64,000 bases of DNA. It comes from Flavihumibacter cheonanensis. Its GTDB lineage: Bacteria; Bacteroidota; Bacteroidia; Chitinophagales; Chitinophagaceae. Shown piece after piece: positions 578 through 59,880 of the stretch. The notes beneath the pieces were generated by a model, which saw nothing but the letters and a program-made list of their open reading frames with translations, made no database searches and was not told the origin of the DNA. Location: assembly GCF_022352215.1 (NCBI RefSeq), contig NZ_JAKRWF010000001.1, positions 744,001-808,000 of the forward strand. The letters run 5' to 3'. Each line of letters opens with the position of its first letter. The first letter of the stretch is position 1. The translations under genes and the position numbers were made by a program.

Positions 578-598
578 TTCTCACGTCTCACTTCTCAC
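578..598 (-). repeat. Heptamer tandem array, 3 units (GTGAGAA type), behind dodecin
   Basis: Read on the minus strand this is GTGAGAA-GTGAGAC-GTGAGAA, an exact 7-bp period, with a fourth degenerate unit toward 605. It fills the space between the stop of the dehydrogenase and the stop of dodecin. Dodecin's own TGA (595-597) lies inside the last unit, so the array continues directly from the gene in the sense direction. Five similar arrays occur in the window. Confidence 0.85.
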
Positions 599-798
599 TT
601 CTCTATTTCAAAGCTCAACTTAACCGTCACACGATACTCAGTGATCTTACCATTTTCAACTGAGGCACTCATATCCTGGATATAAACGGAACGGATATTA
701 TGCAGGCTTTTGGAAGCTTCGGTAATAGCCTGCTGGGCGGCATCTTCCCAACTTTTAGTGGAGTTGGCCATCAATTCCAACACTTTTACAACTGACAT
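595..798 (-). CDS. Dodecin family flavin-binding protein
   Basis: A protein of about 67 residues with the dodecin pattern: MSVVKVLELMANSTKSWEDA at the start, then AITEASKSLHNIRSVYI and a final strand with ITEYRVTVKLSFEIE. Dodecins form dodecameric shells that store or buffer flavins, or in some bacteria coenzyme A, in the cytosol. I chose the ATG at 798 because the family starts with this short Met-Ser/Val-x-Lys-Val strand; an ATG at 834 would add 12 residues not seen in dodecins. The last codons GAG AAG TGA lie within the heptamer repeat described at 578-598. It is transcribed alone, convergent with the upstream dehydrogenase. Confidence 0.9.
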   Translation of the reverse strand: MSVVKVLELMANSTKSWEDAAQQAITEASKSLHNIRSVYIQDMSASVENGKITEYRVTVKLSFEIEK

Positions 799-905
799 AG
801 AATTTGATTTAATGGTGAGTGAATGGAATACCAACTAAAGGTAGACTTCTTCTCTGAATCTCTAATCATCTAGTTTGATTGCTACATCCTGATAATTCAC
901 CACTC

Positions 906-947
906 AACACATGTTAACTGTGTTCCTGCAACGCAATGGTAATTTTG
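906..947 (+). promoter_or_regulatory. Putative regulated promoter of the susC-like gene
   Basis: TAATTTTG at 940-947 matches the Bacteroidota -7 element TAnnTTTG exactly. No TTTG stands at the expected -33 distance. Instead an interrupted dyad, AACACA-TGTTAAC-TGTGTT (906-924), occupies that place. A weak -33 with a dyad is what an activator-dependent promoter would look like. This is inference from spacing only. The start codon is at 1002. The rest of 799-1001 holds nothing I recognise. Confidence 0.4.
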
Positions 948-1001
948 GTTGTCTCTGCCTTCACGAAAAGTAGATCAAATATTTAACGAAAAAACAGCAT
1001 T

Positions 1002-3998
1002 ATGAGGAAAATTATCTTGTACTTGACGGTATTGATTTCGTTGAGTACAACTGCAGCTGCACAAAAAGCTGTTACAGGAAAAGTGGTGGATGAAAAAGAT
1101 GGAAGTCCGGTTGTAGGAGCCTCCATCCGGGTAAAAAATGGTGCCATTCTGGGCACTACCAATGAGCAGGGAAGCTTCTCGGTTTCTGCTCCAGACAATG
1201 CACGTGCATTGGTATTCACCTATGTTGGATACGATGAAATTGAAGTGGCAATTACAGGAAATGAATTGCTGGTAAGTATGAAACAGGCCAGCCGCTCCTT
1301 AAACGAAGTGGTGGTAACTGGATATGCAACACGTACGCGGCGCGCTAATACGGGATCTGTATCGGTAGTGTCAATTGATGATATCCGGACACAGCCGAAT
1401 GCTTCTTTTGATCAGATGTTGCAGGGACAGGCACCTGGAATCAACGTGAAAACGGGATCCGGTCAACCGGGTAGAAATGCGGATGTGATCATCCGTGGTA
1501 AAGGTTCCATCAATGGATCCAATGCGCCCTTGTATATTCTGGATGGAGTGGAAATCCGCGCTGGTGATTTCAGCAGCATGAACCAAAATGATTTTGAGTC
1601 GGTAACCATTTTGAAAGATGCAGCTTCCACTGCAATTTACGGATCACGTGGTGCCAATGGGGTAATTGTAATTACTACCAAAAAGGGAAGAGCGGGACGT
1701 ATGCGTCTTAGCTATGATGGCCAGATTGGTACGGCCAGACTTCCGGAAAATCAGTTGAAACTGATGAATACCCAGGAAAAACTGGATTTCGAAATGAATA
1801 TTGCCGGAAACCCCTGGGGTTGGTCAGCTGCAGAGGTGGAAGAGTTCAGCAAGGTTAATACCAATTGGAATGATTTTGTTTTCCGCAATGCGGGAATGCA
1901 ATCGCACCAGATTTCTGCCTCTGGTGGTACTGATAAGACAACCTTTTATACTTCTTTGGGTTACTACGATGAAGAAGGTATCGCGATTGGAACGGGGATT
2001 AAAAAATACAATGGCCGGATCAATATCGCACATACCGATAATAACCTGAAAATTGGTGCTAATATGGCTGGCGGCTGGTCCAATTATACTGGCACTTTTG
2101 AAGGAGACCAGAGTATTGGTTCTCCACTGAATACCGTAATCTGGGCCTTGCCATATGAGCGTCCATATAATGCGGATGGTTCATATGGAGAGTCTGTTCA
2201 GTTTCCTTTCTGGATTAATCCGGCTGAAGACCTGATTGAAAATCCCAATCGCAGCTGGCAGCTAAAAGGCTCAGGAAATATTTATCTTGAATACAAATTA
2301 CCCTGGGTAAAGAACCTGACCTATCGCATCAATGCAGGTGGCGATTATTCTCAATTGGAAGGATTTAGTATCATCAAGAATGGTACACAGTCGGCTCGTC
2401 AGAATGAAGCATTTGGTCAGGATTTCCGCCGGAATGGTGAGATCGCCAGAAGCCTTGACAGACGTTTCCGGTATACCATTACCAACAGTTTGAATTATAA
2501 AACTGACCTGGATCAGGATGGAGATCATAACTTGTCAGTATCGCTGTTTACGGAGTTCGTAAAAAATACTTCGCGTTCATTTAATTACACAGCTTATGGC
2601 TTATTACTGCCTTTTGAGAATGAAGCAGGTTTGGTACCAGGCACTGTTGACAATGGATTCATTCCGGTAGTAGGTGGTGGATTTCCGGAGAACAATGCAC
2701 TGATGTCTTATTTCGGATCAGTAGATTATGCGTACAAGGGTCGTTATTATTTGACTTTAACAGGAAGAACCGATGGTTCATCAAAACTGAGCCCGGAGAA
2801 TCGCTGGACACAATACGGATCAGCAGGTGCGAGCTGGATTGTAAGTGATGAAGATTTTTTCAAGTTCAACGCAATGAATTTCCTCAAACTCAAAGCGAGT
2901 TACGGATCTGTGGGTAATCAGAATGGTATTGGTGATTTCCCTTACCTGCAACAATATGGAAGAGGTAGTTATGGTGGTCGTGGTTCGCTGAGTGTAAATC
3001 GTCTGGGAAACAACCTGCTAACCTGGGAAATCAGAAGCACACTCAACATTGGTGCTGATATGGAATTCTTCCAATCGCGGGTGCGGGCATCTGTTGAATG
3101 GTATAACAGCTTAACCAAGGGATTGTATTTCTCTCCCTTTGTTCCAAGTACAAGTGGAGGAAATGGAACCTTGCTGAGCAACAATGGTAGCATGCAAAAC
3201 CGTGGTATTGAAGCTTCCATTGGTGTGAAGATTATCAATAAACGAAATTTCAAATGGTCAATTGATGCGAACTATGCGTATAATAAGAATACGATTAAGT
3301 CGCTCCCGGATGGCCAGGATTTCCAGTTGTACAAGAGCTTCCAGGCCCTCCAGGTTGGTAAACCCTTCAATAGTTTTTACCTGGTACGGTATGCAGGTGT
3401 GAATCCGGCCAACGGAAACTCACAGTATTACAAAGCCGATGGAAAAACAATTACTGAGCAGTATGATGCGAATGACCTGGTGGTATTGGGAACCAGTGAT
3501 GCTCCACACAATGCCGGTTTAACTACTACAGTTAGTTATAAAGGAATCGAGTTTTCTGCTTTCGGTGTTTTATCTGCAGGAAACTATATCTATAACAATG
3601 CGAGATTCAATGTTGAGTATAATGGATATACAACTTCCGGATTTGCAAGAAGTGGATTGACTGCCTGGACCACACCAGGGCAAATCACCAATTTTCCACG
3701 CTTAAGTGAAACAACAGAAGGTAGTACAACCCGCTTCCTGGAAAAAGGAGATTTCTTCCGGTTGAGAAATGTACAACTGGCCTACACTTTACCGGCAGAA
3801 GTAGTAAGTCGTCTTAAGATTCAGGGCTTCCGGATTTTTGTACAGGGTCAGAACCTGTATACCAAATTCAAGTTCCAGGGATGGGATCCGGAAGTGTCCA
3901 GTGTGAACGATGCAGATCCGAACTCCAATGCCTCGGTGAGCGGAGCACAATATCCTTCTTTAAAGCGTGTAACCGTAGGCGTTAACCTTACCCTTTAA
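1002..3998 (+). CDS. SusC/RagA-family TonB-linked outer membrane transporter
   Basis: 998 residues. It starts with a Sec signal peptide (about 1-20, ending TTAAA before Gln), followed by a carboxypeptidase-regulatory-like beta-sandwich (about 23-105) and the SusC linker around LNEVVVTGY. The plug domain (about 115-230) contains LYILDGVEI and ending segments VTILKDAASTAIYGSRGANG and VIVITTKKG, which are typical of SusC proteins. The remainder is a long beta-barrel ending in a hydrophobic strand. SusC proteins import oligosaccharides or peptides across the outer membrane, powered by TonB, with SusD as a lid. The SusD partner follows after 17 bp, so the two form an operon. The GH92-like gene downstream suggests a mannose-containing glycan as cargo (inference). 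Confidence 0.96.
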   Translation: MRKIILYLTVLISLSTTAAAQKAVTGKVVDEKDGSPVVGASIRVKNGAILGTTNEQGSFSVSAPDNARALVFTYVGYDEIEVAITGNELLVSMKQASRSLNEVVVTGYATRTRRANTGSVSVVSIDDIRTQPNASFDQMLQGQAPGINVKTGSGQPGRNADVIIRGKGSINGSNAPLYILDGVEIRAGDFSSMNQNDFESVTILKDAASTAIYGSRGANGVIVITTKKGRAGRMRLSYDGQIGTARLPENQLKLMNTQEKLDFEMNIAGNPWGWSAAEVEEFSKVNTNWNDFVFRNAGMQSHQISASGGTDKTTFYTSLGYYDEEGIAIGTGIKKYNGRINIAHTDNNLKIGANMAGGWSNYTGTFEGDQSIGSPLNTVIWALPYERPYNADGSYGESVQFPFWINPAEDLIENPNRSWQLKGSGNIYLEYKLPWVKNLTYRINAGGDYSQLEGFSIIKNGTQSARQNEAFGQDFRRNGEIARSLDRRFRYTITNSLNYKTDLDQDGDHNLSVSLFTEFVKNTSRSFNYTAYGLLLPFENEAGLVPGTVDNGFIPVVGGGFPENNALMSYFGSVDYAYKGRYYLTLTGRTDGSSKLSPENRWTQYGSAGASWIVSDEDFFKFNAMNFLKLKASYGSVGNQNGIGDFPYLQQYGRGSYGGRGSLSVNRLGNNLLTWEIRSTLNIGADMEFFQSRVRASVEWYNSLTKGLYFSPFVPSTSGGNGTLLSNNGSMQNRGIEASIGVKIINKRNFKWSIDANYAYNKNTIKSLPDGQDFQLYKSFQALQVGKPFNSFYLVRYAGVNPANGNSQYYKADGKTITEQYDANDLVVLGTSDAPHNAGLTTTVSYKGIEFSAFGVLSAGNYIYNNARFNVEYNGYTTSGFARSGLTAWTTPGQITNFPRLSETTEGSTTRFLEKGDFFRLRNVQLAYTLPAEVVSRLKIQGFRIFVQGQNLYTKFKFQGWDPEVSSVNDADPNSNASVSGAQYPSLKRVTVGVNLTL

Positions 3999-4015
3999 TT
4001 CAAAAAACAGAACAC

Positions 4016-5452
4016 ATGAAACGTAGTTTTTTATATATAACCATTTTAGCGGGAGGCCTGCTGGTACTTGGTGCCTGTAACAAACAGCTGGAAACAGAAC
4101 CGCAGACAGAGCTTACCGAATTGAAGACCTTTGAAGATGTGCAATCTGCTCTTCAGGGAAGTTATGAAGGATTTAAAAGTACCCGGTATTATAATAATCC
4201 AGCTGCCAGCGGCTCAGCAAGTGCCTGGAGTGCATTACCCGATATGATGGGTGATGATATGATTGAGGCATTGGAAAGCCTCGGTAACTGGCGCATCCTG
4301 TCTGAGTTGGCTTACAACGCGGATAATGGTGCTGTTCAACTCGCGTTTCGCCAGGGTTATGAAATCATTTCCCGGGTGAACAATGTACTGCAGGCCTTAC
4401 CTGCATATGAGACGGGAGATACTGAGGCGGATGCAAAAACGGTTCGCGGGCAGGCACTGGCTATTCGTGCGCATGCACATTTTGATCTGCTGCGTTATTT
4501 TGCTCCACAATACGATCGTAATTCTACAGAGCTGGCTGTTCCTTATGTAACCAGTTTTGATCCTTTAAATCCGCTGACCATATTGCCGGCACGGAATACA
4601 GTAAAAGAAGTGTATGACCGGATTTTTGAAGATCTCGATAACGCTCTGATTGCATTTGAACAGGGAGGTAATCCTTCAGGGAATACTGCCCGCTATTATA
4701 TTGATGAAACAGTCGTACATGCAATGAAGGCCCGAATCAATTTATATGCCGGCAACTGGCAGGCTGCAATTGATGAAGCAACTACAGCACTGGATGCTCG
4801 CGGACTCACAGATGCCGATGGTTATGTTGAGGTATTTTCAACTGATACCGAAGCTGCTCCTTCCAGTGAAGTGTATTGGGCGATTCCTTCTGACAATATA
4901 CTTACGCCTGGTGGTGGTATTTCGGGAGGTAATCCGAATTACCGGGTAGCCACGCCGATCAGCAATATTATTGAAGACCTGGGTGGTGCTTATGACGAAC
5001 CCGGAGTTATTCTCTTTAATCAAACCGGTATTGGTGGTTTTCAACGAACCATCGTTGATAAATACCCAGGCGTAAACAGTTTCAAAGTATTCCGTGCAGG
5101 GGAGATGATGCTCATTCGGGCAGAAGCCAAACAGCGTCTTGGAAACCCTACTGCCCTGGAAGATCTGAATGCATTACGTGCTGCACGCGGTGTGGATGAA
5201 GGTAATGAAACAGGTGCAGCACTGCTTGACGCGATCTTGTTGTTGCGCAGAGTTGAATTACTTGGTGAAGGACACCGTTGGTTTGATATCAAACGTACTA
5301 CGCGCATCATCAACAGAACTGAATGTGGTACTGCTGGTGGTTCTTCATCCAACAATTGTTCAATTGGAGCCAACTCCCGCTCCTGGGCATTTCCTATTCC
5401 GTTCAACGATATACGGGTGAATCCGAACCTGGTACAGAACCAGGGATATTAG
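4016..5452 (+). CDS. SusD/RagB-family outer-membrane lipoprotein
   Basis: 478 residues. The signal peptide ends in the lipobox LGAC with the lipidated Cys at 21, followed by Asn-Lys. The body shows SusD features: ALRGQALAIRAHAHFDLLRYF-type helices (here VRGQALAIRAHAHFDLLRYF, about 143-162), the alpha-helical TPR-like scaffold, and the C-terminal blocks VFRAGEMMLIRAEA, LNALRAARG and LLRRVELLGEGHRWFDIKR, where an RRxEL motif and WFDIKR are near-diagnostic. It works on the cell surface as the ligand-binding lid of the preceding SusC. The stop codon is followed within 5 bp by a six-unit heptamer array and then a hairpin, marking the end of the SusCD operon. Confidence 0.96.
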   Translation: MKRSFLYITILAGGLLVLGACNKQLETEPQTELTELKTFEDVQSALQGSYEGFKSTRYYNNPAASGSASAWSALPDMMGDDMIEALESLGNWRILSELAYNADNGAVQLAFRQGYEIISRVNNVLQALPAYETGDTEADAKTVRGQALAIRAHAHFDLLRYFAPQYDRNSTELAVPYVTSFDPLNPLTILPARNTVKEVYDRIFEDLDNALIAFEQGGNPSGNTARYYIDETVVHAMKARINLYAGNWQAAIDEATTALDARGLTDADGYVEVFSTDTEAAPSSEVYWAIPSDNILTPGGGISGGNPNYRVATPISNIIEDLGGAYDEPGVILFNQTGIGGFQRTIVDKYPGVNSFKVFRAGEMMLIRAEAKQRLGNPTALEDLNALRAARGVDEGNETGAALLDAILLLRRVELLGEGHRWFDIKRTTRIINRTECGTAGGSSSNNCSIGANSRSWAFPIPFNDIRVNPNLVQNQGY

Positions 5453-5456
5453 AGAA

Positions 5457-5498
5457 GTAAGAAGTGAGAAGTAAGAAGTGAGAAGTGAGAAGTGAGAC
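5457..5498 (+). repeat. Heptamer tandem array, 6 units (GTRAGAA), behind susD
   Basis: Six uninterrupted 7-bp units: GTAAGAA, GTGAGAA, GTAAGAA, GTGAGAA, GTGAGAA, GTGAGAC. This is the most regular copy of the repeat family in the window. It starts 5 bp after the TAG of the SusD gene and points in the gene's sense direction. The units carry TGA or TAA in every reading frame. No gene converges here. Confidence 0.92.
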
Positions 5499-5506
5499 CT
5501 GGAACG

Positions 5507-5543
5507 AAAAGCCTCAATTGCCTGATGGGTAATTGAGGCTTTT
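5507..5543 (+). terminator. Intrinsic terminator-like hairpin after susCD
   Basis: Perfect 13-bp stem, AAAAGCCTCAATT (5507-5519) with AATTGAGGCTTTT (5531-5543), and an 11-nt loop. It has A-run and T-run flanks, so it could act on either strand. It lies behind the heptamer array and separates susCD from the GH92-like gene. Confidence 0.8.
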
Positions 5544-5614
5544 GCGCAAATTGAGGGGAGGGGGAGGCGTAGCTTCTGTTTCGGGTGCAGCAGATTGCTT
5601 ATTTTCAGGGCCGT

Positions 5615-8600
5615 ATGAAACAGGCCCTTTTTTCTTTAGTAGCAACTGCAATAGCGGGATGCGTATTTTTTCCTTTTTATGCTACTGCGCAAGCCGCAGA
5701 AACAACCCAGTCAAAAACTGTACTGGATCTCGTCAATCCTTTTATTGGTACTACCAATGCCGAACAACCAACCAAATGGGGGGCTGAAGGTGGAACCTAT
5801 CCGGGTGCCGTAGCTCCCTGGGGAAGGGTGCAATTGAGTCCGGAAACTAAAACCGGCGGGCTCAAGGGATATGATTACCGAGACTCCATCATTTATTTCT
5901 TCAGTTGTACCAATCATAGCAGCGGCTACCCGAATGGCTCTGCAGGAAATATTAAAGTGCTGCCACTTGCTGATTCCAGGTTTCGGAAGAAACCAAGTGC
6001 CGGAAGGCCTTTTCGTCATAAGGAGGAAAAGGCTCAGCCAGGTTATTATCGGGTTCAGTTTACAGATGACCAGGGTACTGCTGAGATGACAACTGCCGTA
6101 CGAACCGGACTTTTTCGCTTTCGTTTTCCTAATGGTGTTTTACCACGCATTTTTTTGGGCGATATGGGTAAACTCATACCAAGATCCAAGCGCCTTCTAT
6201 ATAGTGAACGCCAGAATCTGGTGCTTGCCTTTCCAACCGATATGATGGGTATGGAACCGGTGGAAGATGGTGTGGTCCTGACTTTTTCACCCCGTTCTGA
6301 TAATTCGGTGTTGATGAAATTATCAGTATCCTCCATTGATGAAGCCGGGAGTATGCTAAATATGCAACAGGAGTGCCCGGGTTGGGATTTTGACGCTTTC
6401 CGGACTGCGAACCAGCAGCAATGGACAAATCTGCTCAACCTCATCCAGGTGGAAGATCCTTCTGAAGAAAATAAAACAAAGTTTTATACGGCGTTTTATC
6501 ACTCTTTCCTGGTACCCTGGATTATTTCGGATGTAGATGGCCGTTACAAAGGAGCTCGTGGTAAGGTTTACTTCACAAAGGGAATTCATCAGTTCAGTAA
6601 ATTCTCTCCCTGGGATACCTACCGAAGTTTACATCCACTATTGGCACTGCTCGTGCCTTCTGTTCAGGAAGATATGATTCGTTCAATGCTGGACCATTTT
6701 GAACAAACAGGAAAACTACCTAAGGGGCCGATGACCGGCTACCACTCGCTTCCGGTTATACTGGACAGCTGGCGCAAGGGAATTCGTGGATTTGATTTGC
6801 AACTAGCCTGGAAAGCTATGCTGGCTTCGCTGGATTCCACCATGCAGGAACCTGATTTCGCGGAATACCGGAAGAAAGGATATGTCTCAGCAGCCTATTC
6901 AGAATCCGTTACTAAAACGGTGGAGTACTCTTACAACGATTGGGTTATGGCTGAAATGGCAAAAGAAGTAAAGGATTCATCTGGTATACATTTTTTTGGC
7001 CCGCTTGCATACAGTTACCGAAACCTTTTTCATTCACCCAGTGGATTTATCCTGCCCAAAAAGCAGGAGGAATTTATAGTTGAGCCGGAGAGTAACGGGT
7101 ATAAAGAAGGAGATAAATGGATCTATAGTTATGTGATACCTCATGATGCACGGGGCCTCGTAAACCTGATGGGAGGGGATTCTTCTTTTATTGCTAAACT
7201 TGATTCAGCACTCGCAACAGGACTTTTGCTATTTGATAATGAACCTGCATTTCATGTGCCTTATTTATTCAATTTTACTAATCAGCCTTCCCTATCACAG
7301 GCATGGATACGCGAAATTATGCAGGAAAAGTTTTCTGCTGGTCCGGGTGGTATTCCCGGCAACGACGACCTTGGTTCCATGTCGAGCTGGTTTGTTTTTA
7401 GTGCCATGGGTTTTTATCCGGTAGTCGTAGGCGCTCCTGTTTATGAGATTGGATCGCCCCTCTTTAAGCAGGTTAAACTGCAATTGCCCGGCGGAAAAAC
7501 AGTTGAAATCAAGGCGCCTTCGAATGTTGCAGAAAATATATATGTACAGGGACTAAGCCTCCGCGACAAACCATTAAATAAGTTATTTCTATACCACGAT
7601 GAGCTTGTTATGGGGGGTGAATTGGTTTTTGAGCTTTGGTCAAAACCGGCGGATGAAAAATTCAAATCCGCACGGTTTGATGGCAGGTCGGCAACGATTC
7701 ATCCGGTACAACCAGAATTACTTGGTTATTATACCAGGAAGCAGGAGGTTGAACCCAATGATTCAGTTTGGGTAATTTATACAATGCGAAATACCGGTGC
7801 TGATGGAAATGCTTCCGTTAAGCTTCGGGTTGACGGGCAACCGAAAACTTCAAAAATGAGCTGGTTACCGGAAGGAGCAACCGTCACAGATTCTGTACTT
7901 CTACAGGCTTATCAGCCTGGTGAGCATACGATTCAATTAAATGCGGGACACCTAATTCCATTCTCGGTGAAACTTCCTGCAGAAACACCCAATCAAAAAT
8001 TTTTGGTAAAGGAATTGCGGACTGTACCATTGGCTAAATATGGAACAGCACATCGGTTAGATTATATTGTTCAAAATATAACAGGTAAAACAGAAACTGT
8101 GTTGCTGCCAGTTATGGTAAATGGCCAAAAACTAAAAGATGAAACTGTTCTACTGGAAGCTGGCGAAGAAAAAACGCAATCTGTTCAGGTGCCCGCTGAT
8201 CTGCCTGGAATTATGCAGGTTCAGATAGGAGATAAGACTGCCCAGTTAAAAGTAGTGGAGCATGCAAGGGAGAAAATAATATTGGATATAGCGATGGGTA
8301 AAGCAAAGCCAGGAGAGCAAGTCAAGGATGGATCGGGGCTTGGAAATCATGGATTATTCAAACAGGAAACCCGACTTATGGCAGATAATACAACCCAAAC
8401 CATTCAATATGTACAGTTTGAAAATTCTCCAAGCCTGGATGAATTGCAGGATGAAATCACGGTGATGGCCTGGGTATTGCCAGGAAAACAAAAAGGCATG
8501 GCGGATATACTTGCAAAGGGAGATTTTATTGTACTGCAGCAAACTGGGCAATCGCTAAGTTTTTTTGCGGGTGGCTGGGGACAAGGTTCCTGTGATGTGT

Positions 8601-31789: not shown

Positions 31790-31873
31790 TGCCCAGAACA
31801 GGAATCGAACCTGCACTCCCTTGCGAGAACCAGATTTTGAGTCTAGCGCGTCTACCAATTCCGCCATCTGGGC
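31790..31873 (-). tRNA. tRNA-Leu (anticodon CAA)
   Basis: 84 nt on the minus strand. The acceptor arms GCCCAGA and TCTGGGC pair perfectly with A as discriminator. The D arm contains TTGGTAGACGC, the anticodon stem CTAGA/TCTGG encloses loop CTCAAAA, giving anticodon CAA (Leu, codon UUG). A long variable arm (class II) and the T arm GGTTCGATTCC follow. CCA is not encoded. Confidence 0.95.
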
Positions 31874-42831: not shown

Positions 42832-42889
42832 GTGAAACGTGAAACGTGAGAAGTGAAAATGGTGAAAGGTGAGAAGTGAAATGTGAAAA
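42832..42889 (+). repeat. Heptamer tandem array, 8 units (GTGARAN), behind the fasciclin gene
   Basis: Units on the plus strand: GTGAAAC, GTGAAAC, GTGAGAA, GTGAAAATG (9 bp, two extra), GTGAAAG, GTGAGAA, GTGAAAT, GTGAAAA. It starts 7 bp after the TAA of the fasciclin gene, in the sense direction. It is the longest copy of the family here. GTGAGAAGTGA within it is complementary to part of the opposite array at 43066-43093. Confidence 0.88.
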
Positions 42890-42894
42890 ACTAC

Positions 42895-42922
42895 TTCATA
42901 ATTCATACTTCAAAGTTCATAA
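42895..42922 (-). repeat. Second heptamer family, 4 units (TTCATAA/TTCATAC)
   Basis: Plus strand: TTCATAA, TTCATAC, TTCAAAG, TTCATAA; minus strand GTATGAA-type units. Same 7-bp period as the GTGARAN arrays but a different core. It lies between the fasciclin-side array and the hairpin at 42928. A second copy is at 44326-44353. Confidence 0.8.
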
Positions 42923-42927
42923 TTGAA

Positions 42928-42951
42928 AAGGCCCTCCTTGCGGGGGGCCTT
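42928..42951. terminator. GC-rich hairpin between fasciclin and ychF genes
   Basis: AAGGCCCTCC (42928-42937) pairs with GGGGGGCCTT (42942-42951), one T-G wobble, loop TTGC. On the minus strand it is followed by TTTTC, on the plus strand by no T-run, so it would serve best for transcripts coming from ychF. The stretch 42952-43065 holds nothing I recognise. Confidence 0.7.
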
Positions 42952-43065
42952 CGTCATGGGGAACGTTATTTTCTATCGGGTCGTTTCAACAAAGCTGCAT
43001 CAGCAGATGCTATTCGATTATGGGAGTCAGATATTATAATGAAGGCACAAATCTAGGGGTTTTCC

Positions 43066-43093
43066 GTCTCACTTCTCACGTCTCACATTTCAC
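43066..43093 (-). repeat. Heptamer tandem array, 4 units, behind ychF
   Basis: Minus strand: GTGAAAT, GTGAGAC, GTGAGAA, GTGAGAC, without interruption. It begins 16 bp after the ychF stop codon, in the sense direction of ychF, and faces the array at 42832-42889. Confidence 0.88.
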
Positions 43094-43095
43094 CT

Positions 43096-43125
43096 CCGAT
43101 TCAACGTCGTTAGACGTTAAATCGG
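43096..43125 (-). other. Stem-loop across the ychF stop codon
   Basis: CCGATTCAACGTC (43096-43108) pairs with GACGTTAAATCGG (43113-43125) with one mismatch and loop GTTA. The ychF stop (43110-43112) is in the loop, and the right arm encodes the last four residues. No T-run follows; the heptamer array comes next, so this is not a classic terminator. Confidence 0.65.
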
Positions 43126-44210
43126 AAATGCATCACATCTCCATCTTTCACCAGGTATTCTTTTCCTTCGATTCTCAGTTTGCCGGCATCGCGACAGGCA
43201 GCTTCTGAGCCGTAGTGAACGAAATCTTCATACGCAATTACCTCGGCCTTGATAAATCCTTTTTCAAAATCAGTATGGATGACGCTGGCGGCCTGCGGTG
43301 CTTTCCAGCCTTCCAATATGGTCCATGCACGCACTTCCTGCACTCCGGCTGTAAAATAAGTCTGTAATTTCAGTAGTTTATAGGTAGCGCGAATGAGTTT
43401 GTTCAATGCGGGTTCTTTCATCTTGTATTCGTCCATGAACAGGGCGCGGTCATCCGGATCTTCCATTTCTGCAATCTGCTGTTCAATTGAATTGTTCATT
43501 ACAATTACTTCAGCGCCTTCTTTGGCTACGGCTGCTTTGAGGGCTTCGGAAAATTTATTACCGGTATGCATGGATGGTTCATCCACGTTGGCAACATATA
43601 GCACAGGTTTCTCAGTTAGTAGAAAGAGATCTGCAATAGCAGAACGATCTTCTTTGCTCAAGCCTAACTCGCGGATATTTTTTCCTTGTTCCAGGTGAGC
43701 ATGACAGCGTTTCAGTATTTCAAGTTCAGCCTTTGTTTTGGCATCACCGGTCTTGGCCATTTTTTCAGCCCGATGCAATTTTTTCTCCACACTGTCCAGG
43801 TCTTTCAGCTGTAATTCCGTATCGATAATGTCTTTATCGCCAACCGGATTAATGGGGCCCTCATCACGCAGGATATTTTCATCCTCAAAACAACGGATCA
43901 CGTGTACGATAGCGTCCACTTCCCGGATATTGGCCAGAAATTTATTACCAAGTCCTTCTCCTTTGCTGGCTCCTTTTACGAGGCCGGCAATGTCCACAAT
44001 TTCAATCTGGGTGGGAACGGTACGATTGGGCTTTACCAGTTCGGCCAGTTTGTCAATACGCTCATCAGGAACATTAACCAATCCTACGTTCGGTTCAATT
44101 GTACAAAAGCGATAGTTGCTCGCCTGCGCTTTAGCACTGCTGCTCACTGCGTTAAAAAGGGTGGATTTGCCCACATTCGGTAATCCTACTATTCCTGCTT
44201 GTAATCCCAT
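43110..44210 (-). CDS. ychF: Redox-regulated ATPase/GTPase YchF (OLA1 family)
   Basis: 366 residues, the standard YchF length. [20 protein letters not shown] contains the P-loop. [19 protein letters not shown] is the G3 region with the YchF-typical Gly-Leu-Val replacing the usual switch. VANVDEPS appears in place of the NKxD motif, matching the family's shift to ATP. The C-terminal TGS domain shows [15 protein letters not shown] and [33 protein letters not shown]. It is a universally conserved, ribosome-associated ATPase in the cytosol. Its 3' end has a stem-loop and a heptamer array. It is divergent from the SpmAB-like gene, with a large palindrome between. Confidence 0.97.
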   Translation of the reverse strand: [366 protein letters not shown]

Positions 44211-44325: not shown

Positions 44326-44353
44326 TTCATACTTCATAACTCAAACTTCATAC
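44326..44353. repeat. Second heptamer family, 4 units, just before the SpmAB-like start codon
   Basis: Plus strand: TTCATAC, TTCATAA, CTCAAAC, TTCATAC. It ends 8 bp before the ATG at 44362 and so forms the untranslated leader. It is the same unit type as 42895-42922, but here in front of a gene, unlike all GTGARAN arrays. Confidence 0.8.
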
Positions 44354-44361
44354 TTCCCAGG

Positions 44362-51306: not shown

Positions 51307-52056
51307 TTATAGTACCTGAACTCCAGCTGCAGCGTAAGGCTGAAGGGCAGGATCTGTTGCATTTAGTTCAGTTATTAATGTATTTACTTTTGAAATATCG
51401 CAAACATGCAGAGGTTGGGTGGAATTCATTTTTTCAGAAATAGTGAGACAAACAACCCGTTTTGCTGATTCAATCATGGCTCTTTTTACCATCACAACCT
51501 CCCAATCATTATCAGTAACTCCATGTTGTATGTCAATGGCATTAATACCTAAAAAACAAATATCTGCACGGATACTTTTTATCTGTTGAATGGCATCTGC
51601 ACCAACGGTAATCTTGGAGTTTTTAGCTACCTTATCACCAATTACAATTACATCAATATTGGGGTGATTGCTGTATTCCATAATTACCGGAATACTTCCT
51701 GAAATAAATGTGGCTTTTAGCCCGGGCGGCAATGCTCTTGCCATTTCCAGAATTGTTGTTCCACCTGTTGTCAGGATGAACATACCGTCTTCGATCAGGG
51801 CTGCTGCTTTGCGGGCAATTTCCTGTTTATTGGCCTGTGAATAGATTTCGACCGGAGTGAAATTAACCTGGCTGAAAGAATGTGATAGGGCTCCTCCATG
51901 CACTTTGATCAGTTTGTTCTGATCAGCTAATTCCTGAAGATCCCTTCTGATAGTATCTTCTGATACATTGATTTCCTGGCAAAGCTGAGCTGATAAAACC
52001 TTATTGTGCAAGTTTACCTGATGCAAAATATAAGCTTGTCGCTCTCGTTTAAGCAT
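51307..52056 (-). CDS. DeoR/GlpR-family transcriptional regulator
   Basis: 249 residues. An N-terminal winged HTH (LKRERQAYILHQVNLHNKVLS, INVSEDTIRRDLQELADQ, IKVHGGAL) is followed by the ribose-isomerase-like DeoR effector domain (FILTTGGTTILEMARAL, DICFLGINAID, GVTDNDWEVVMVKRAMIE). DeoR proteins typically respond to sugar phosphates. It ends 42 bp before the SusC start on the same strand and is a good candidate for local control of that uptake operon; in Bacteroidota such a regulator next to SusCD is less common than ECF sigma/anti-sigma pairs. Confidence 0.92.
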   Translation of the reverse strand: MLKRERQAYILHQVNLHNKVLSAQLCQEINVSEDTIRRDLQELADQNKLIKVHGGALSHSFSQVNFTPVEIYSQANKQEIARKAAALIEDGMFILTTGGTTILEMARALPPGLKATFISGSIPVIMEYSNHPNIDVIVIGDKVAKNSKITVGADAIQQIKSIRADICFLGINAIDIQHGVTDNDWEVVMVKRAMIESAKRVVCLTISEKMNSTQPLHVCDISKVNTLITELNATDPALQPYAAAGVQVL

Positions 52057-52144
52057 AGTTTGTTGGTTGGGACCTCAATATACGAGAAAACCGCAGAAAC
52101 AAGCAAACATTCTTTTAAAACCGCATTAAAATTGCAGGATAGCG

Positions 52145-53332: not shown

Positions 53333-53333
53333 G

Positions 53334-55019
53334 CTATTCGTTTATTACCGGGTCCTCGAAAAGTTCAAATTTAGTTTTTGGGCGCCTTTTTTCCAACCAT
53401 TTAAATCCACGCAGGCGCATTTCACCATGATTTACCTGGCGAAAGGGGTACATGGTTCCTTCCACGGAGCTTCGGAATACTACCCGGTTGAGTTCCTTAT
53501 TTGCAAAATAAAAATCAATGATATCTGCGGTGGATCGGTTTACTCCGGAATAGGCCGAATCCTGATCCTGTGCATAATAGATACTCTCAGCGGAACCTTT
53601 TGCCCGCATGTAATTGATCACTCCATCTGTGAAATAGCCATTGATCGTATTTCCTTTAATCTGGTTGTAAAAATCTTCTGCTGTCCGGTTTATTACCAGC
53701 CCATTATCATATACATGTAGCCGCTCCGGGTCTTTGTTTTTGGTATATAAAAAAATAGTATCTCCTGTTACCTGCGTCCCATTGGCCCAGGCTACCGGAT
53801 CAGTAAACATTCTGAATATGGAATCCACGCCTGAATAAAAAAGGCTGTCGCAAACTGCCTGCAAAGAGTCACTGAATATCCTTACCCGGTGCCAGGCCTG
53901 GAAATAACGGTTACGGTTAGTCGTATCTGCCGGGTCCAGCACAGTAAGTCGCCATAAACTGTCAGAAATTGCTGTGCTATCGGTACCCAAACTATCCGTT
54001 ACCACTTGCACGGGGCGGATAAATGTTTTCTGGTAATCTGTCTTATCCGTTAATCGGGCTGAATACAAAGTGTCCGCAGATACAAATATGGAATCCTCTT
54101 TTTGTTTGATGATCATCAGCGGTCGTTGCGTTGCCAGGAGGGTATTGGTTTTTTTATTTGCTTTCAAATCATTTGCCAGAATGGAGATACCCTGGGCTGT
54201 ATCGCGAAATACCGCATTTCCCCTCGCATAACTATCCCCGGTATTATCATCAAAACCAACATCATCTCCCGTTACAAAAGTGGTTCCGTCTTTAATGACC
54301 GGCCGGCGACCAAATTTGGCCACTTTGTTTTTCATATCATAATACCCTTCCGATGTAGTGATATCACGTCTACCGCTATCTGAAAGGATTCTTGTTTTGG
54401 TAATAAATGTAGCTATCCGGCTATCGGTGTTAAAAAGCAGCGAGTCTGTTGCCAGGTCATATTCCGGATCTTTCATCTTTACGTCCTTTTTGAAATAGAC
54501 GTCCTTCATGTCGCCGTAATAGATCGCTTCCTTACTTGTCAGTACCGTTTTATCACTAACTACTTTTCCTCCATTGGTGTAGGTGCCGATTTTTAAATTG
54601 GTATCGTATTCCAGGTCATTGGTAGTGAGTACACCTTTGCCATCCGTCAGCCTTACATTCTTTTTGAGATAGGCTTTTTTCTCATTGGAATAATAGATCA
54701 GGTATTGTGCATAGGTGTGTATGCTGTCGGCGTCATTAATATGTACGTTTCCGAAGGCTTCCACTACCCCTGTAGCCGGATTAATCACTGCACTGTCGCA
54801 GTAAAACTTGGTAGTGCCCTGTTCAAGGAAAACATTGCCCGCCAGCATCTGGAGTTCGGTAACTGAATCTTTTTTCAGATAACGAAAGCGATCGGTTTTA
54901 CGTACGAGAACAATATCCATGGTATCAGCCGGATTCGCAGGCGGAACAGGCTCCTGCGCAATTGCAGGCAGCATTGCCAGCAAAAGCAACCAGCTTAACA
55001 GTAGTCCAACCAGTCGCAT
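53334..55019 (-). CDS. OstA/LptA-like envelope protein
   Basis: 561 residues from the ATG at 55019; the start at 55055 would overlap the preceding MCE gene by 35 bp. A signal peptide (about 1-21) is followed by repeats of the OstA/LptA jellyroll: LQMLAGNVFLEQGTTKFYCD, VVEAFGNVHINDADSIHTYA, AYLKKNVRLTDGKGVLTT and FVTGDDVGFDDNTGDSYARG. LptA-like proteins carry LPS across the periplasm. At 561 residues it is much longer than LptA and is the OstA-like form found in Bacteroidota. Fits with the LptD-like gene at 57087 in one envelope block. Confidence 0.9.
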   Translation of the reverse strand: MRLVGLLLSWLLLLAMLPAIAQEPVPPANPADTMDIVLVRKTDRFRYLKKDSVTELQMLAGNVFLEQGTTKFYCDSAVINPATGVVEAFGNVHINDADSIHTYAQYLIYYSNEKKAYLKKNVRLTDGKGVLTTNDLEYDTNLKIGTYTNGGKVVSDKTVLTSKEAIYYGDMKDVYFKKDVKMKDPEYDLATDSLLFNTDSRIATFITKTRILSDSGRRDITTSEGYYDMKNKVAKFGRRPVIKDGTTFVTGDDVGFDDNTGDSYARGNAVFRDTAQGISILANDLKANKKTNTLLATQRPLMIIKQKEDSIFVSADTLYSARLTDKTDYQKTFIRPVQVVTDSLGTDSTAISDSLWRLTVLDPADTTNRNRYFQAWHRVRIFSDSLQAVCDSLFYSGVDSIFRMFTDPVAWANGTQVTGDTIFLYTKNKDPERLHVYDNGLVINRTAEDFYNQIKGNTINGYFTDGVINYMRAKGSAESIYYAQDQDSAYSGVNRSTADIIDFYFANKELNRVVFRSSVEGTMYPFRQVNHGEMRLRGFKWLEKRRPKTKFELFEDPVINE

Positions 55020-55020
55020 T

Positions 55021-56019
55021 TTATTGAGATTGTGGCGTCGTTTGTGTAGAATCATTTAAGGGCGCCTGCAGGGGTTTATTCTTGTCTTTACGTCCGAATA
55101 CAGATACATTAATATACCGTTTCGGATGCACCCTTACATCATCGAGCAAAATATTCAAACTTCTGGTTGTGTTTTCCAGGTTCTGATATAATTGTTTATC
55201 ATTTAACAGAAGTCCCAAAGACCCATCCTTACTATTCGCTTTTTCAACCAGTCCATTTAAATTGCCAATGGTTGACTGCAGATTATCTACCATTCCTTTA
55301 ATATCGGCAGCAGCCAATTGATCAGTGGTTTTTTCCAGGTTACCCAGGGTATGGGTGATACTTTCATTATTCGAAGCAAGGTTACCACTAACCGATTCCA
55401 GATTGGCCATGGTTTTATTAAGATTGCTGTTCTGGGATGCAATCAACTGATTTAATGCAGCAGAGGCTTTTGCTAAATTGGCAATGATGGTATGGAAATT
55501 ATTTTTTGTGTTAGGGTCAAAATAGGTCCCTACTACCTGGATCAGCGAATCCAGGGAAACCAGTGTGCCATCCAGGGATTGCAAAGCGGGATTCAGCGTA
55601 CCGGTTACTTCATCCAGCATGGCGATTTTGACTTTACTGCCAATTGTATCTCCATCTGCCAGGAATTCACCGGCGTTGCCTGGTTCAATTACAAGGTTGG
55701 AGGTACCTAAAAGACTTGCATCAATAAAGGCAACGGAATTTTTTGGAATGTTAATATGGCGGGCCAGGTTGATGGTTACTACTATGCCATCTTCAATATT
55801 CGGACTGCGTTCGCGAATTTCAGAAACCATCCCGATCTGTAGCCCATTGAGTAAAACGGGACTAGAATTCGCAAGCCCGGTAACTTTTGGAAAAATCGTA
55901 TATACCTGATCGTTTTTGTCGAAGAAACTTTTTCCCTTCAGAAAATTGAAGCCAAGTATCAGTAAGGTAATACTTACCACTGCCAGGATTCCGATCTTGG
56001 TTTCATTAGATATTTTCAT
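55021..56019 (-). CDS. MlaD/MCE-family lipid-transport protein
   Basis: 332 residues. One N-terminal helix (about 10-27) anchors it in the inner membrane. The MCE domain (about 38-120) shows YTIFPKVTGLANSSPVLLNG, LQIGMVSEI, and SLLGTSNLVIEPG. A long helical coiled-coil region (about 150-285, rich in Asn/Leu/Thr heptads) follows, as in MCE proteins of Bacteroidota. It presumably binds lipid in the periplasm and passes it between membranes through an ABC transporter encoded elsewhere. It stands between the amidase (30 bp) and the OstA-like gene (1 bp). Confidence 0.94.
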   Translation of the reverse strand: MKISNETKIGILAVVSITLLILGFNFLKGKSFFDKNDQVYTIFPKVTGLANSSPVLLNGLQIGMVSEIRERSPNIEDGIVVTINLARHINIPKNSVAFIDASLLGTSNLVIEPGNAGEFLADGDTIGSKVKIAMLDEVTGTLNPALQSLDGTLVSLDSLIQVVGTYFDPNTKNNFHTIIANLAKASAALNQLIASQNSNLNKTMANLESVSGNLASNNESITHTLGNLEKTTDQLAAADIKGMVDNLQSTIGNLNGLVEKANSKDGSLGLLLNDKQLYQNLENTTRSLNILLDDVRVHPKRYINVSVFGRKDKNKPLQAPLNDSTQTTPQSQ

Positions 56020-56049
56020 GCACTAAGAATTGGAGTCAAATGTAAGGAT

Positions 56050-57030
56050 TTAATTTCCAGTTGTGTTTCGGGGCAAATGCCGTGGGTTTTCCAATTCTTC
56101 TTTATAGCGTTTGAACGCAGTTACGATATTGGTAACTACTTCCTGCTGTCCGGCTTCACTTACCAGGTACTCTTCTTCCTCCTTATTGGTAATAAACCCG
56201 GTCTCAATCAGGATGCTGGGCATACCAGTTGCCTGTAAAACCCAGATTCCCTTGTGATTTCGTTGCTTCACACCAAAGCTTTTTCTTCCCGCACTGGCAA
56301 ATTCTTCTTCAACAAATTGTGCCAGCAGGGCTGAATTACGGAAAAAATACTTGGTATATAATTGTGCCCGGATTTTCGCTTCGGGGGAATTCAGATCCAA
56401 TACGTTGTTGGGATCATCCACCGGTTCTTCTTCACCGCTTTCCTCTTCATCCAGCACGATATTCTCACTTTTCGCACTGGATCGGTCAGCCGCCCAAATA
56501 TAGGTTTCAGTACCTATCCGGGTATTTTTAACATAATAACTTTGATAAATCGGTTGTTTGATCAGCTTTTTCTTCCTGGTTTTTCCTTTTCCTACATAAA
56601 CCACCTTGTTCTTATACCCAACAATTTTCTTCTGATACCATCCCCCGGCTTTCTGACCGGTTGCATTCAGGTGAATAGAGATAAAGAGATCACCCTTTGC
56701 TTCATTGGCCATTTCAGCCCTGATCCGGTTCGCCAGGTTGGGGTCGGTTACTCCTTTTGGAAGATTGGCATCTTTTCTTGTGTAAATGAAATTAATTTCA
56801 GGATAAGCCTGTTCTAATTCCTTACCCAATTTCAGTGCAATGGATAATGCTACTTCGGCTTCTGTGGAAATAAGTCCCCGTGCTCCCGGATCCCTTCCGC
56901 CATGGCCGGCATCAATGATTACTGTCTTCAGCGCATTTTTAGTAGCCTGTGCGATGCTGTTTTTTGAAAATATTAGCAACACGCCGGCAGCGATAACTAT
57001 ATAGAGTCGGGTCTTGAACAATCTGATCAT
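56050..57030 (-). CDS. N-acetylmuramoyl-L-alanine amidase (Amidase_3)
   Basis: 326 residues from the ATG at 57030, which begins the signal/anchor MIRLFKTRLYIVIAAGVLL; an ATG 16 codons upstream is possible. The catalytic domain has VIIDAGHGGRDPGARG (zinc His), a Glu in STEAEVALSIALKLG, SIHLNATG (zinc His) and SILIETGFITNKEEE (catalytic Glu). A Lys-rich and acidic insertion (about 145-220) is an addition not essential to the fold. It cuts the peptide from muramic acid in the periplasm. It diverges from the LptD-like gene, 56 bp apart. Confidence 0.94.
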   Translation of the reverse strand: MIRLFKTRLYIVIAAGVLLIFSKNSIAQATKNALKTVIIDAGHGGRDPGARGLISTEAEVALSIALKLGKELEQAYPEINFIYTRKDANLPKGVTDPNLANRIRAEMANEAKGDLFISIHLNATGQKAGGWYQKKIVGYKNKVVYVGKGKTRKKKLIKQPIYQSYYVKNTRIGTETYIWAADRSSAKSENIVLDEEESGEEEPVDDPNNVLDLNSPEAKIRAQLYTKYFFRNSALLAQFVEEEFASAGRKSFGVKQRNHKGIWVLQATGMPSILIETGFITNKEEEEYLVSEAGQQEVVTNIVTAFKRYKEELENPRHLPRNTTGN

Positions 57031-57039
57031 ACAATAACC

Positions 57040-57071
57040 TTTGAATAATGGGTATCGAATCCCTATTTTTG
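57040..57071 (+). promoter_or_regulatory. Bacteroidota-type promoter of the LptD-like gene
   Basis: TTTG at 57040-57043, 20 bp, TATTTTTG at 57064-57071 (exact match to TAnnTTTG). The ATG at 57087 follows 15 bp later. This lies in the divergent region between the amidase and LptD-like genes. Confidence 0.7.
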
Positions 57072-57086
57072 CCCCCATTCAATAGT

Positions 57087-59795
57087 ATGAAGGACGGCGG
57101 CAAATTTAGTTTAAAATACATTTTTATCGGGCTTTTTGCACTGCTGCTTGTAATATTAACGCACGCTTCCAAGGCGAATTATCCATTTTCCGGAAAATTT
57201 AATGCCCCTTTAACGCATCAGCAGCGCGATACAGTTCCTTCCAAAGTGGATAGCCTGCCACTCAAAAAAGACAGTCTTGGCAACCCAATCAGGGATACTA
57301 CTGGCAAACTGTTCCAGCAAATTGATACTTTAAATGTTAAGATTTCTTCGGATTCCCTGGATGCCCCTGTTCAATATGCAGCTTCCGATTCCATGGTGCT
57401 GGATGTGCCTACAAAAAAAATAACGCTTTATAATAAAGCCAGTACCAAGTACAAAGACCTGGATCTGACTGCCTATAGCATTGAACTGGATCAGCCGACC
57501 CAGATTGTGGTGGCTACCTTTATGCTGGACAGCTTAGGTGAAAAACAGGGTAAGCCGCATTTTGTACAGGGAGAAAGTAATATGGATGCAGATTCCATCA
57601 TTTACAATTTCAAAACCCAGAAAGGGATCACCAAAAGCACCTTCACCCAGCAGGGGGAAATGTTTGTATACGGTAGCAGAATCAAGAAAGTTAATATCAA
57701 TGATTTCTTTGCCCTGGATGGCCGGTTTACTACCTGTAACCTGGATACTCCACATTTTGCATTCCGTACCAAAAAACTGAAGCTGGTTAATAAAAAACTG
57801 GCAGTGAGCGGACCCATCCATCCTGAATTTGAAGGTGTTCCGGTGCCTATTTATATCCCATTTGGTTTTTTCCCGCTATCCCAGGGGCGCAAATCCGGGA
57901 TACTACCACCTCAGTTTGTTGCCAATGAACAATTTGGTCTGGGTTTGGAAGGGGTTGGATATTATAAAGTCCTGGGAGAAAAATTTGATGTCATGCTTCG
58001 GGGCGATATCTATTCCTATGGTGGTTGGCGGGCCGTACTAACACCTACCTATAAACGACGCTATCGGTACTCGGGCAGGCTGAACCTTTCCCTGCAGAAT
58101 ACCCGGATCCTGAGTCGGGATGCTACAAAGGAATTTGATGTTAACCGGAGTTTCAACATTCAGTGGAGTCATGTGGCAGATGCCAAAGCCAGGCCCGGTA
58201 CCAGTTTCCAGGCCAGTGTAAATGCTGGTTCTACGCAGTACAACCGTTTTGTTGGAGCCAACCCATCCATCAACTTCCAGAACCAGATGTATTCTTCCAT
58301 CGCCTACACCAAAAACTGGAATAACAAATTCAACCTTAGTTTAACCGCCGGGCATGATCAGAATAACCGGACCCGCCAGGTAAATGTTCGTCTCCCGGAT
58401 GGATCTTTCACCGTCAATAACTTTTATCCTTTTCAGAAGAAAGAATTTGTGGGTACACCGAAATGGTATGAAAAACTGGGGATTGGTTTGAACTCTCAAT
58501 TCCGGAACCAGGTTTCTTTTTATGACAGTGCATTCAGCTTTACCCAGTTGATTGATACCATGCAATGGGGCGCCCAGCACAATATTCCGATTACGCTTTC
58601 GCTTCCATCCCTGGGACCCATCCAGATTGCACCGGGTATAAGTTATTCAGAACGTTGGTATGCCCAGCAATTTGATCGTACCTGGAATCCTGCCACCAAT
58701 AAAATTGATACTTCCATCAATCGGGGTTTTTACACTGCCCGCGACATGTCATTCAGCATGAGCCTGAATACCGCACTATTTGGTACCTATGATAAGTTTG
58801 GTAAAAACAGCAGCATACGTGCAATTCGCCATGTGATCCGCCCATCGGTTTCAGCCAGTTATAAACCTGACCTGAACGGTAAGGATTATTATTCCACCCA
58901 GGTAGATACTACCGGCAGGCAGGTTCGTTTCAGCAGGTATGCCGGGAGTTTGTTTGGCGCCTTCGGCGAAGGGGAATTCGGTGGTCTCAGTTTCAGCCTG
59001 GATAATAACCTCGAAATGAAAGTTCGTTCGAAGAAAGATACTACTTCAGAGGATGGTATCCGAAAAGTCCGACTCATTGATGGTTTCGGTCTAACCGGCA
59101 GTTATAACTTCCTGGCGGATAGTTTTCAGTTGTCTCCCATCAGCCTGTACCTGAGAAGCACCTTGTTTGAAAAGATCAATATCACGGCTTCTGCGAGCCT
59201 CGATCCATACAAGACAGACCGCCAGGGGTACCGGATCAATGAACTGGCCTGGTCGGGAGATGGATTTTCATTGGGTAGGATTACTTCGGGAAACATTGCC
59301 GTATCTACATCTTTTACCAGCAAACAGAAGGAGAAAAAAGAAATTCCACCGGATGAAGACCTGAGTGGAATCGGACTGCCGATGACCAATGAAGAACAGC
59401 AGGCATTAATCAACAATGTGCGAAACAATCCGGCTGAATACGCCGATTTCAATATCCCCTGGTCGGTGAACCTATCCTATTCACTGAGCTTCAGCCGTCT
59501 TTTAAAACGAGATTATTCTGGTTATGAAACCCAGATTAATTCCAGTGTCAATGTAAGCGGAGATTTCAATCTTACGCCCAAATGGAAACTGGGTGCAAGT
59601 ACCTTTTATGATTTCCGGGGCGCTTCCATACAGCAGCTAACGATGTTCCTTAGCCGCGAACTGCATTGCTGGCAATTAGGTATCAATATCACCCCGGTTG
59701 GTTTGTATCGCACCTTTAATATTACGATCAACCCGAAATCAGGGCTGTTGAGAGATTTGAAAATTAACCGGTCAAAATTCTTTTATACGCAATAA
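57087..59795 (+). CDS. LptD-like outer-membrane LPS-assembly protein
   Basis: 902 residues from the ATG at 57087 (the frame is open further back to 57048, but that overlaps the promoter). After a signal/anchor helix (about 8-28), residues about 75-290 contain OstA-like strands (VQYAASDSMVLDVPTKKITL, MDADSIIYNFKTQKGIT). Blocks such as GRFTTCNLDTPHFAFRTKKL and PVPIYIPFGFFPLSQGRKSG match the PF19838 LptD_2 type of Bacteroidota. The last two thirds form a beta-barrel ending FFYTQ. It would insert LPS into the outer leaflet. The stop is followed by a four-unit heptamer array. Confidence 0.9.
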   Translation: MKDGGKFSLKYIFIGLFALLLVILTHASKANYPFSGKFNAPLTHQQRDTVPSKVDSLPLKKDSLGNPIRDTTGKLFQQIDTLNVKISSDSLDAPVQYAASDSMVLDVPTKKITLYNKASTKYKDLDLTAYSIELDQPTQIVVATFMLDSLGEKQGKPHFVQGESNMDADSIIYNFKTQKGITKSTFTQQGEMFVYGSRIKKVNINDFFALDGRFTTCNLDTPHFAFRTKKLKLVNKKLAVSGPIHPEFEGVPVPIYIPFGFFPLSQGRKSGILPPQFVANEQFGLGLEGVGYYKVLGEKFDVMLRGDIYSYGGWRAVLTPTYKRRYRYSGRLNLSLQNTRILSRDATKEFDVNRSFNIQWSHVADAKARPGTSFQASVNAGSTQYNRFVGANPSINFQNQMYSSIAYTKNWNNKFNLSLTAGHDQNNRTRQVNVRLPDGSFTVNNFYPFQKKEFVGTPKWYEKLGIGLNSQFRNQVSFYDSAFSFTQLIDTMQWGAQHNIPITLSLPSLGPIQIAPGISYSERWYAQQFDRTWNPATNKIDTSINRGFYTARDMSFSMSLNTALFGTYDKFGKNSSIRAIRHVIRPSVSASYKPDLNGKDYYSTQVDTTGRQVRFSRYAGSLFGAFGEGEFGGLSFSLDNNLEMKVRSKKDTTSEDGIRKVRLIDGFGLTGSYNFLADSFQLSPISLYLRSTLFEKINITASASLDPYKTDRQGYRINELAWSGDGFSLGRITSGNIAVSTSFTSKQKEKKEIPPDEDLSGIGLPMTNEEQQALINNVRNNPAEYADFNIPWSVNLSYSLSFSRLLKRDYSGYETQINSSVNVSGDFNLTPKWKLGASTFYDFRGASIQQLTMFLSRELHCWQLGINITPVGLYRTFNITINPKSGLLRDLKINRSKFFYTQ

Positions 59796-59801
59796 GAGGA
59801 A

Positions 59802-59829
59802 GTGAGATGTCAGACGTGAAACGTGAGAC
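59802..59829 (+). repeat. Heptamer tandem array, 4 units, behind the LptD-like gene
   Basis: Plus strand: GTGAGAT, GTCAGAC, GTGAAAC, GTGAGAC. It starts 6 bp after the stop codon in the sense direction. The last two units (59816-59829) are exactly complementary to 59867-59880, giving a 14-bp stem with a 37-nt loop. Confidence 0.9.
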
Positions 59830-59852
59830 AGAAAACAATTTTCACTTGTCTC

Positions 59853-59880
59853 TTCTGACGTCTCACGTCTCACGTTTCAC
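59853..59880 (-). repeat. Heptamer tandem array, 4 units, overlapping the acyltransferase 3' end
   Basis: Minus strand: GTGAAAC, GTGAGAC, GTGAGAC, GTCAGAA. The acyltransferase stop codon (59863-59865) lies within it, so the array encodes the protein's last five residues VKRET. It faces the array at 59802-59829. Confidence 0.9.

Follow-up and report, generated by a model that had tools for sequence, protein, structure and literature searches.

The stretch of DNA considered here, hereafter the window, is a 64,000-nucleotide segment of Flavihumibacter cheonanensis (contig NZ_JAKRWF010000001.1, positions 744,001 to 808,000), and it contains six tandem arrays of a 7-bp unit, GTGARAN, each situated on or just past the stop codon of a gene. 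The neighboring genes, for which Pfam matches agree with the names given in an earlier sequence-only reading, encode dodecin, SusD, fasciclin, YchF, LptD_2, and acyltransferase proteins. The array at the dodecin gene (578..603, minus strand; 3.7 units by TRF; offset −4) provides the stop codon of that gene, a TGA at 595-597, and the array at 59853..59880 (minus strand; offset −18) provides that of the PlsC-like acyltransferase gene. An array of GTAAGAA/GTGAGAA units (5457..5498, plus strand) starts 4 bp past the SusD stop and is followed by what appears by eye to be a hairpin with a T-run; an eight-unit array (42832..42889, plus strand) starts 7 bp past the stop of the fasciclin gene; and arrays at 43066..43093 (minus strand) and 59802..59829 (plus strand) lie 16 bp past the YchF stop and 6 bp past the LptD-like stop, respectively. 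Five of the six contain three exact GTGARAN units, and the sixth, 59802..59829, includes one GTCAGAC unit according to a reading by eye. TRF assigned a period of 7 to the segments 578-603, 5452-5497, 42832-42889, 43065-43086, and 59854-59880, and the window holds nine overlapping three-unit matches as compared with none in 100 dinucleotide shuffles. Only 5457..5498 lies in a tandem gap; the gaps of the other five, including the dodecin array, are convergent, that of 59802 being assigned by position.

The arrays extend well beyond these 64 kb. The 4.84-Mb genome of F. cheonanensis gives 280 overlapping three-unit matches to GTGARAN (155 forward and 125 reverse), whereas the reversed pattern, used as a control, gives a single match (0 forward, 1 reverse). 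Positions were analyzed for the 46 arrays with three exact units in a contiguous 1.248-Mb block that includes the window and makes up 26% of the genome. Gene calls, in this block as in the other genomes considered below, came from a custom dicodon caller, a non-standard program by which small genes may be missed. No array lies deep within a called gene, and 17 of the 46 overlap a stop. A search for periodicity that presupposed no word, and that took gaps of at least 60 bp only, found a lag of 7 at 30 of 403 gene ends, or about 7%, as compared with 3 of 485 start regions; the other lags from 3 to 14 were found 0 or 1 times, apart from the harmonic at 14 bp, seen at 13 of 403 ends and 1 of 485 starts. 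The heptamer arrays belong to one population that is spread over the genome and located at gene 3′ ends, on or just past the stop codon, and their purine-rich GTGA strand is the coding one.

The relationship to stop codons was evaluated against random placement of the arrays within the same gaps (2000 trials). Arrays in sense orientation and no more than 20 bp from a stop number 33 of 46, as compared with a null mean of 11.3, a value reached in none of the trials. Agreement in orientation with the preceding gene, which the sequence-only reading had singled out as the striking feature in the window (six of six), is a much poorer guide: 35 of the 46 arrays are in sense orientation, but 31.5 are expected and 188 of the 2000 trials reached that number. 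Most of the agreement is forced because 21 of the 46 arrays are in convergent gaps, where either orientation is sense. Orientation alone was accordingly rejected as evidence; it is weak, and the strong evidence is closeness to the stop. Among the 21 convergent arrays, 20 are closer to the stop of their own gene, which was again equaled in 0 of 2000 trials. In the 17 arrays that overlap a stop, the codon in use lies inside the array, and the offsets −4 and −18, with seven arrays each, are prominent; 16 arrays begin 0-16 bp past a native stop, as compared with 3 antisense arrays that face a stop no more than 20 bp away (two-sided binomial p = 0.0044). The proposed stop-codon proximity in sense orientation therefore holds throughout the block, and the same rule is found in the related genomes sampled; neither confinement to the 64 kb nor a lack of stop preference was seen in either.

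The share of arrays in convergent gaps, 21 of 46 as compared with 5.0 expected on random placement over all gaps, is what would favor a track for protein binding at the level of DNA, related to the nucleoid or to a boundary between convergent genes. This is quite improbable, since arrays in tandem gaps follow the same stop-proximity rule and the word, and even the period (7 or 8), varies at one site. A second functional reading follows directly from the sequence of the unit: with a period of 7 and a TGA that shifts frame in each unit, three units close all frames and could act as a back-up translation stop, and the stop codon in use is indeed inside 17 of the 46 arrays. As a general function this is largely refuted, because an 8-bp word that occupies corresponding sites in one relative (ATGGAGRG, in genome G001) offers no stop codon in any frame, and in the LptD/PlsC gap the acyltransferase frame continues straight through it; in F. 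cheonanensis itself, 12 of 206 units are of the GTCA type and carry no stop codon. Arrays exceeding three units are also left unexplained, the comparable GGGAATC repeats of Xanthomonas and the Nostoc words are free of stop codons in all frames, and Ho and Hurst 2019, in the part of their study available to us, found no selection in bacteria for extra 3′ stop codons in general (PMC6764699). The back-up stop suggested by the sequence-only reading is therefore very improbable.

Arrays often occur as two arms. In the block, all 10 pairs of neighboring arrays less than 400 bp apart are inverted with the purine arm first. Among the matches listed for six other genomes, the same arrangement is found in 26 of 27 pairs that lie on opposite strands less than 200 bp apart, the sole departure being G004:C32:786571/786597. 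Such pairs might constitute an inverted-repeat element in which the two arms, purine arm first, form a hairpin that acts in both directions as a 3′ structure or terminator, but for 26 of the 46 arrays a strict partner is lacking within 400 bp, although some have a degenerate one, and partners may differ in word and should then pair poorly (369789/369826 and 996493). In at least two gaps (window 42832-43093; genome 644204-644374), the arms are separated by canonical terminators, as judged by eye. The arms are also not matched to each other: similarity is 0.82 within gaps and 0.81 between gaps, with no excess likeness (permutation p = 0.40), so that co-evolution of the arms by folding back was rejected. 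Finally, the frequency of terminator-like hairpins at convergent ends, as determined with a home-made finder, is the same with arrays (7 of 19) and without (27 of 79), and a terminator role was likewise rejected. An inverted-repeat element is accordingly unlikely.

Of the 11 antisense arrays of the block, five are second arms that share their gap with a sense array at a stop, and two of these partners use a second word, TATGAAN; of the remainder, three are in gaps called divergent, one is by a tRNA gene, and two are alone (237233 and 968398), these assignments being made partly by eye. RNA genes missed by the gene caller were rejected as an explanation for antisense arrays, only 1 of the 11 being by a tRNA; a search of Rfam with the window and six loci, in which 7 of the 11 are located, returned a single tRNA, and this lies in the window. 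That gene (31790-31873, minus strand) is the only Rfam match of the window at the gathering threshold. The second word family, also of heptamer period, is represented in the window by a minus-strand array at 42895..42924 that is flanked by two GTGARAN arrays, and a TTCATAC heptamer array akin to it lies in a divergent gap at 44326-44356. It was also observed that two antisense arrays, C110:39745-39768 and 237282-237304, abut the near-identical start regions of different genes, with CTTATCTTCGCTCC before or over the ATG; these start regions resemble a leaderless Bacteroidota promoter.

With YchF as the yardstick, the closest named relative, at 99% identity, is Flavihumibacter fluminis RY-1, a member of the Chitinophagaceae, for which genome G004 was taken; its identity with F. 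cheonanensis is 94% over 19.9 kb. With a relaxed pattern in which two units suffice, 300 orthologous gene ends have an array in both species in 18 cases, in G004 only in 1, in F. cheonanensis only in 0, and in neither in 281, so that 18 of 19 array sites are common to the two. The arrays at these sites have a mean similarity of 0.55, as compared with 0.42 for unrelated arrays, and the true ortholog is the best-matching array in just 3 of 18. Sites therefore persist between the two species while most of the units inside them differ. The YchF-end array of the window has an identical copy in F. fluminis. An inverted repeat (43110-43140, minus strand) spans the YchF stop codon and has similar counterparts in F. 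fluminis and G014. At the fasciclin end, the site is occupied with different units in L091/G004, G005, G008, and G014.

Four gene ends, those of the fasciclin, YchF, LptD-like, and PlsC-like genes, were compared by eye in further relatives, some of which bear arrays behind the same genes in another word and others none at the ends checked. In G012 and G013, arrays with the word GGTRAAC or RGTGAAT are present at all four ends; G001 carries its octamer ATGGAGRG both behind the fasciclin gene and between LptD and PlsC; and a word of 8 bp occupies the fasciclin end in G007. No array was seen at the four ends in G002, G003, G006, and G011, or at the three visible ends in G009. Over whole genomes, RGTRAAY has 120 matches each in G012 and G013, 45 in G011, where the compared ends are empty, 27 in G014, 3 in G004, and 1 each in G002, G007, and G008, with none in F. 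cheonanensis, G001, G003, G006, G009, and G010. In G006 and G009, neither GTGARAN nor RGTRAAY has a match anywhere in the genome, and the 100 kb examined from each contains no array of period 7. As a separate observation from such 100-kb blocks, tandem arrays of period 11 account for six TRF rows in G013, where this is the commonest period and one row is intragenic, and for five in G007.

The arrays of G012 and G013, 7 of 40 of which come from stretches picked as orthologous to the window, are in sense orientation in 26 cases, 24 of them no more than 20 bp from a stop. Of the array ends that could be mapped to the F. cheonanensis block, 5 of 10 have an array there, as compared with 30 of 403 ends overall; two of the five shared ends correspond to one F. 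cheonanensis gene end (930448), and against control ends (1 of 7) the difference is weak on its own (Fisher p = 0.16). GTGARAN itself is present in 34 of 195 family genomes with a patchy distribution, even within genera (there are 103 matches in G034 and 307 in G064, each of which has a congener with 0). In two genomes from other genera, G018 and G034, for which 18 of 30 loci were used, the others overlapping those, 12 of 19 arrays are sense and 11 of these are between −18 and +7. Named loci of other genera provide single cases, such as GTTGAGA in Pinibacter and (GGTGAAT)7 behind YchF; the purine strand could be scored against the nearest stop in only five arrays of the named loci, of which four agreed (p = 0.19). 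In another genus of the family, genome G123 was observed to match the reversed control pattern 155 and 123 times, its dominant word being AGAGTGA.

The established features, namely position, polarity, persistence of sites, turnover of units, words that vary among species, and an unaffected frequency of terminator-like hairpins, can be brought together if the arrays are a self-homogenizing repeat of the 3′-untranslated region that takes its polarity from the transcript and that, at gene ends, perpetuates itself and is mainly tolerated, and not a dedicated device; the probability of this reading is put at roughly 0.4. Slippage in register would add or remove units, and arrays may swap units by short-tract conversion or template switching, an exchange through which one vocabulary could come to dominate a genome. 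The polarity would be set by the transcript, if purine-rich RNA free of ribosomes in the 3′-untranslated region pairs with its template as an R-loop and promotes slippage, and a sense array might extend over the stop codon harmlessly, since most units carry TGA. Several points weigh against this reading. The R-loop and conversion steps are conjectural; local copying by fold-back is unsupported, arms being equally alike within and between gaps; and the antisense second arms are left unexplained by a sense transcript. Antisense arrays also form 14 of 40 in G012 and G013 and 6 of 19 in G018 and G034, where one more is unassigned. The near-complete retention of sites relative to F. fluminis could also reflect selection, and outside Flavihumibacter heptamer or octamer periodicity in 76 named loci occurs at 4 of 192 ends and 6 of 174 starts, so that a family-wide excess at gene ends in these loci was rejected.

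The alternative to be taken most seriously, although we would not expect it to hold, is that the arrays are a functional element of the 3′-untranslated region, a purine-rich repeat RNA that binds a protein or shields the 3′ end of the mRNA, with words that co-evolve with the binder, much as DNA uptake signals vary among species. The sense polarity and stop proximity, the location ahead of terminators where these are found, the retention of 18 of 19 sites despite the change of units, and the fact that most of the words found share a core, GTGA or GTRA, are consistent with such an element, but ATGGAGRG, GTTGAGA, and AGTATAGG have no GTGA core and antisense arms occur. The repeat also appears to be dispensable, given that G006 and G009 are free of arrays as far as they were searched. 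The self-homogenizing repeat is preferred because the arrays are patchy even within a genus, their units turn over rapidly, and most gene ends (all but about 7%) have none.

Dispersed tandem repeats of heptanucleotides are known from cyanobacteria as STRR sequences, and REP/BIME elements, which are associated with RAYT transposases, are extragenic, often lie behind genes, and form inverted pairs. The dispersed and patchy occurrence of the present arrays and their inverted pairs would be in keeping with a transposon-like or REP-type element, but the arrays differ from REP sequences in having no palindromic unit with fixed ends and their sites are nearly constant between two species. The Y1 transposase family, the only one tried, is above the cut-off in just G014 and G007 of 15 genomes of the genus, sub-threshold in F. 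cheonanensis and G010, and absent from the array-bearing G004, G005, G008, G012, and G013; a transposase link was rejected for this family, and an element of this kind is extremely improbable. The arrays are likewise unlike intrinsic terminators, given the equal frequency of hairpins with and without them.

Heptamer repeats of other kinds have been described. The TAACTGA repeats that MacGregor 2015 (PMC4679880) described from Beggiatoaceae, cyanobacteria, and five Bacteroidetes resemble the present arrays in being direct, intergenic, and patchy, and TAACTGA gives stops in all forward frames, but, in the sections of that paper available to us, those in the main genome are mostly just upstream of starts, in forward orientation, and were interpreted as translation control sites, whereas the present arrays have different words and are at gene ends. 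The multicopy elements of Geobacter metallireducens, with four or five heptanucleotide repeats (PMC2700814), have the words GGGACCG and MTYCTGA and, in the portion of the report at hand, occur both within and between genes, unlike those described here, with no mention of a location at stop codons.

The nearest parallel was described by Rehm et al. 2015 (PMC4692102), who reported GGGAATC heptamers from Xanthomonas and GGGGA(C/T)T heptamers from Nostoc. According to the available sections of that paper, these are G-rich and mostly intergenic, are sense at 0-50 bp from a stop, including overlap, or antisense upstream of open reading frames (ORFs), and form convergently oriented inverted pairs; 83% are in the same gene context in two species, with changes in length and sequence, and four units are favored and form G-quadruplexes in vitro, with no regulatory role found. 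The F. cheonanensis arrays share with them the tandem 7-bp unit, the mainly intergenic location, the sense placement close to a stop, the close convergent inverted pairs, and the retention of sites with variable sequence. The Rehm repeats differ in that 16% are between convergent ORFs, as compared with 21 of 46 arrays here, and, between aligned ORFs, the two strands are represented about equally (30% same and 35% opposite in Xcc). The suggestion that arrays of this type were without prior description therefore stands for the GTGARAN word in the literature searched, but not for the kind, whose geometry closely resembles that reported, as far as those sections show, by Rehm et al. 2015. The literature searched, in which subscription journals are thinly covered, yielded neither a description of these words nor a case of word replacement. 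What is new is the use of 7-bp words without GGG (GTGARAN, GGTRAAC, and RGTGAAT, although some units of the G001 octamer do contain GGG), together with the change of word at fixed sites, which was not met in the available parts of Rehm et al. 2015. A closely similar, unusual geometry occurs in Bacteroidota in addition to Xanthomonas and Nostoc, and its association with 7-bp words free of GGG argues against G-quadruplexes as the cause of placement. It is conceivable, if speculative and probably too broad, that site, polarity, and a near-constant period are a general feature of bacterial gene ends, with the word a species dialect that is overwritten genome-wide in trans, through a template common to the arrays or an RNA-binding factor that co-evolves with them, the G-quadruplex interpretation for Xanthomonas and Nostoc then being a special case. 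Replacement of words at orthologous ends in Flavihumibacter provides a natural experiment in which site, strand, and a near-constant period are conserved while sequence is free, and the excess of heptamer repeats noted in bacteria can be put to the test in a genus for which a named strain exists.

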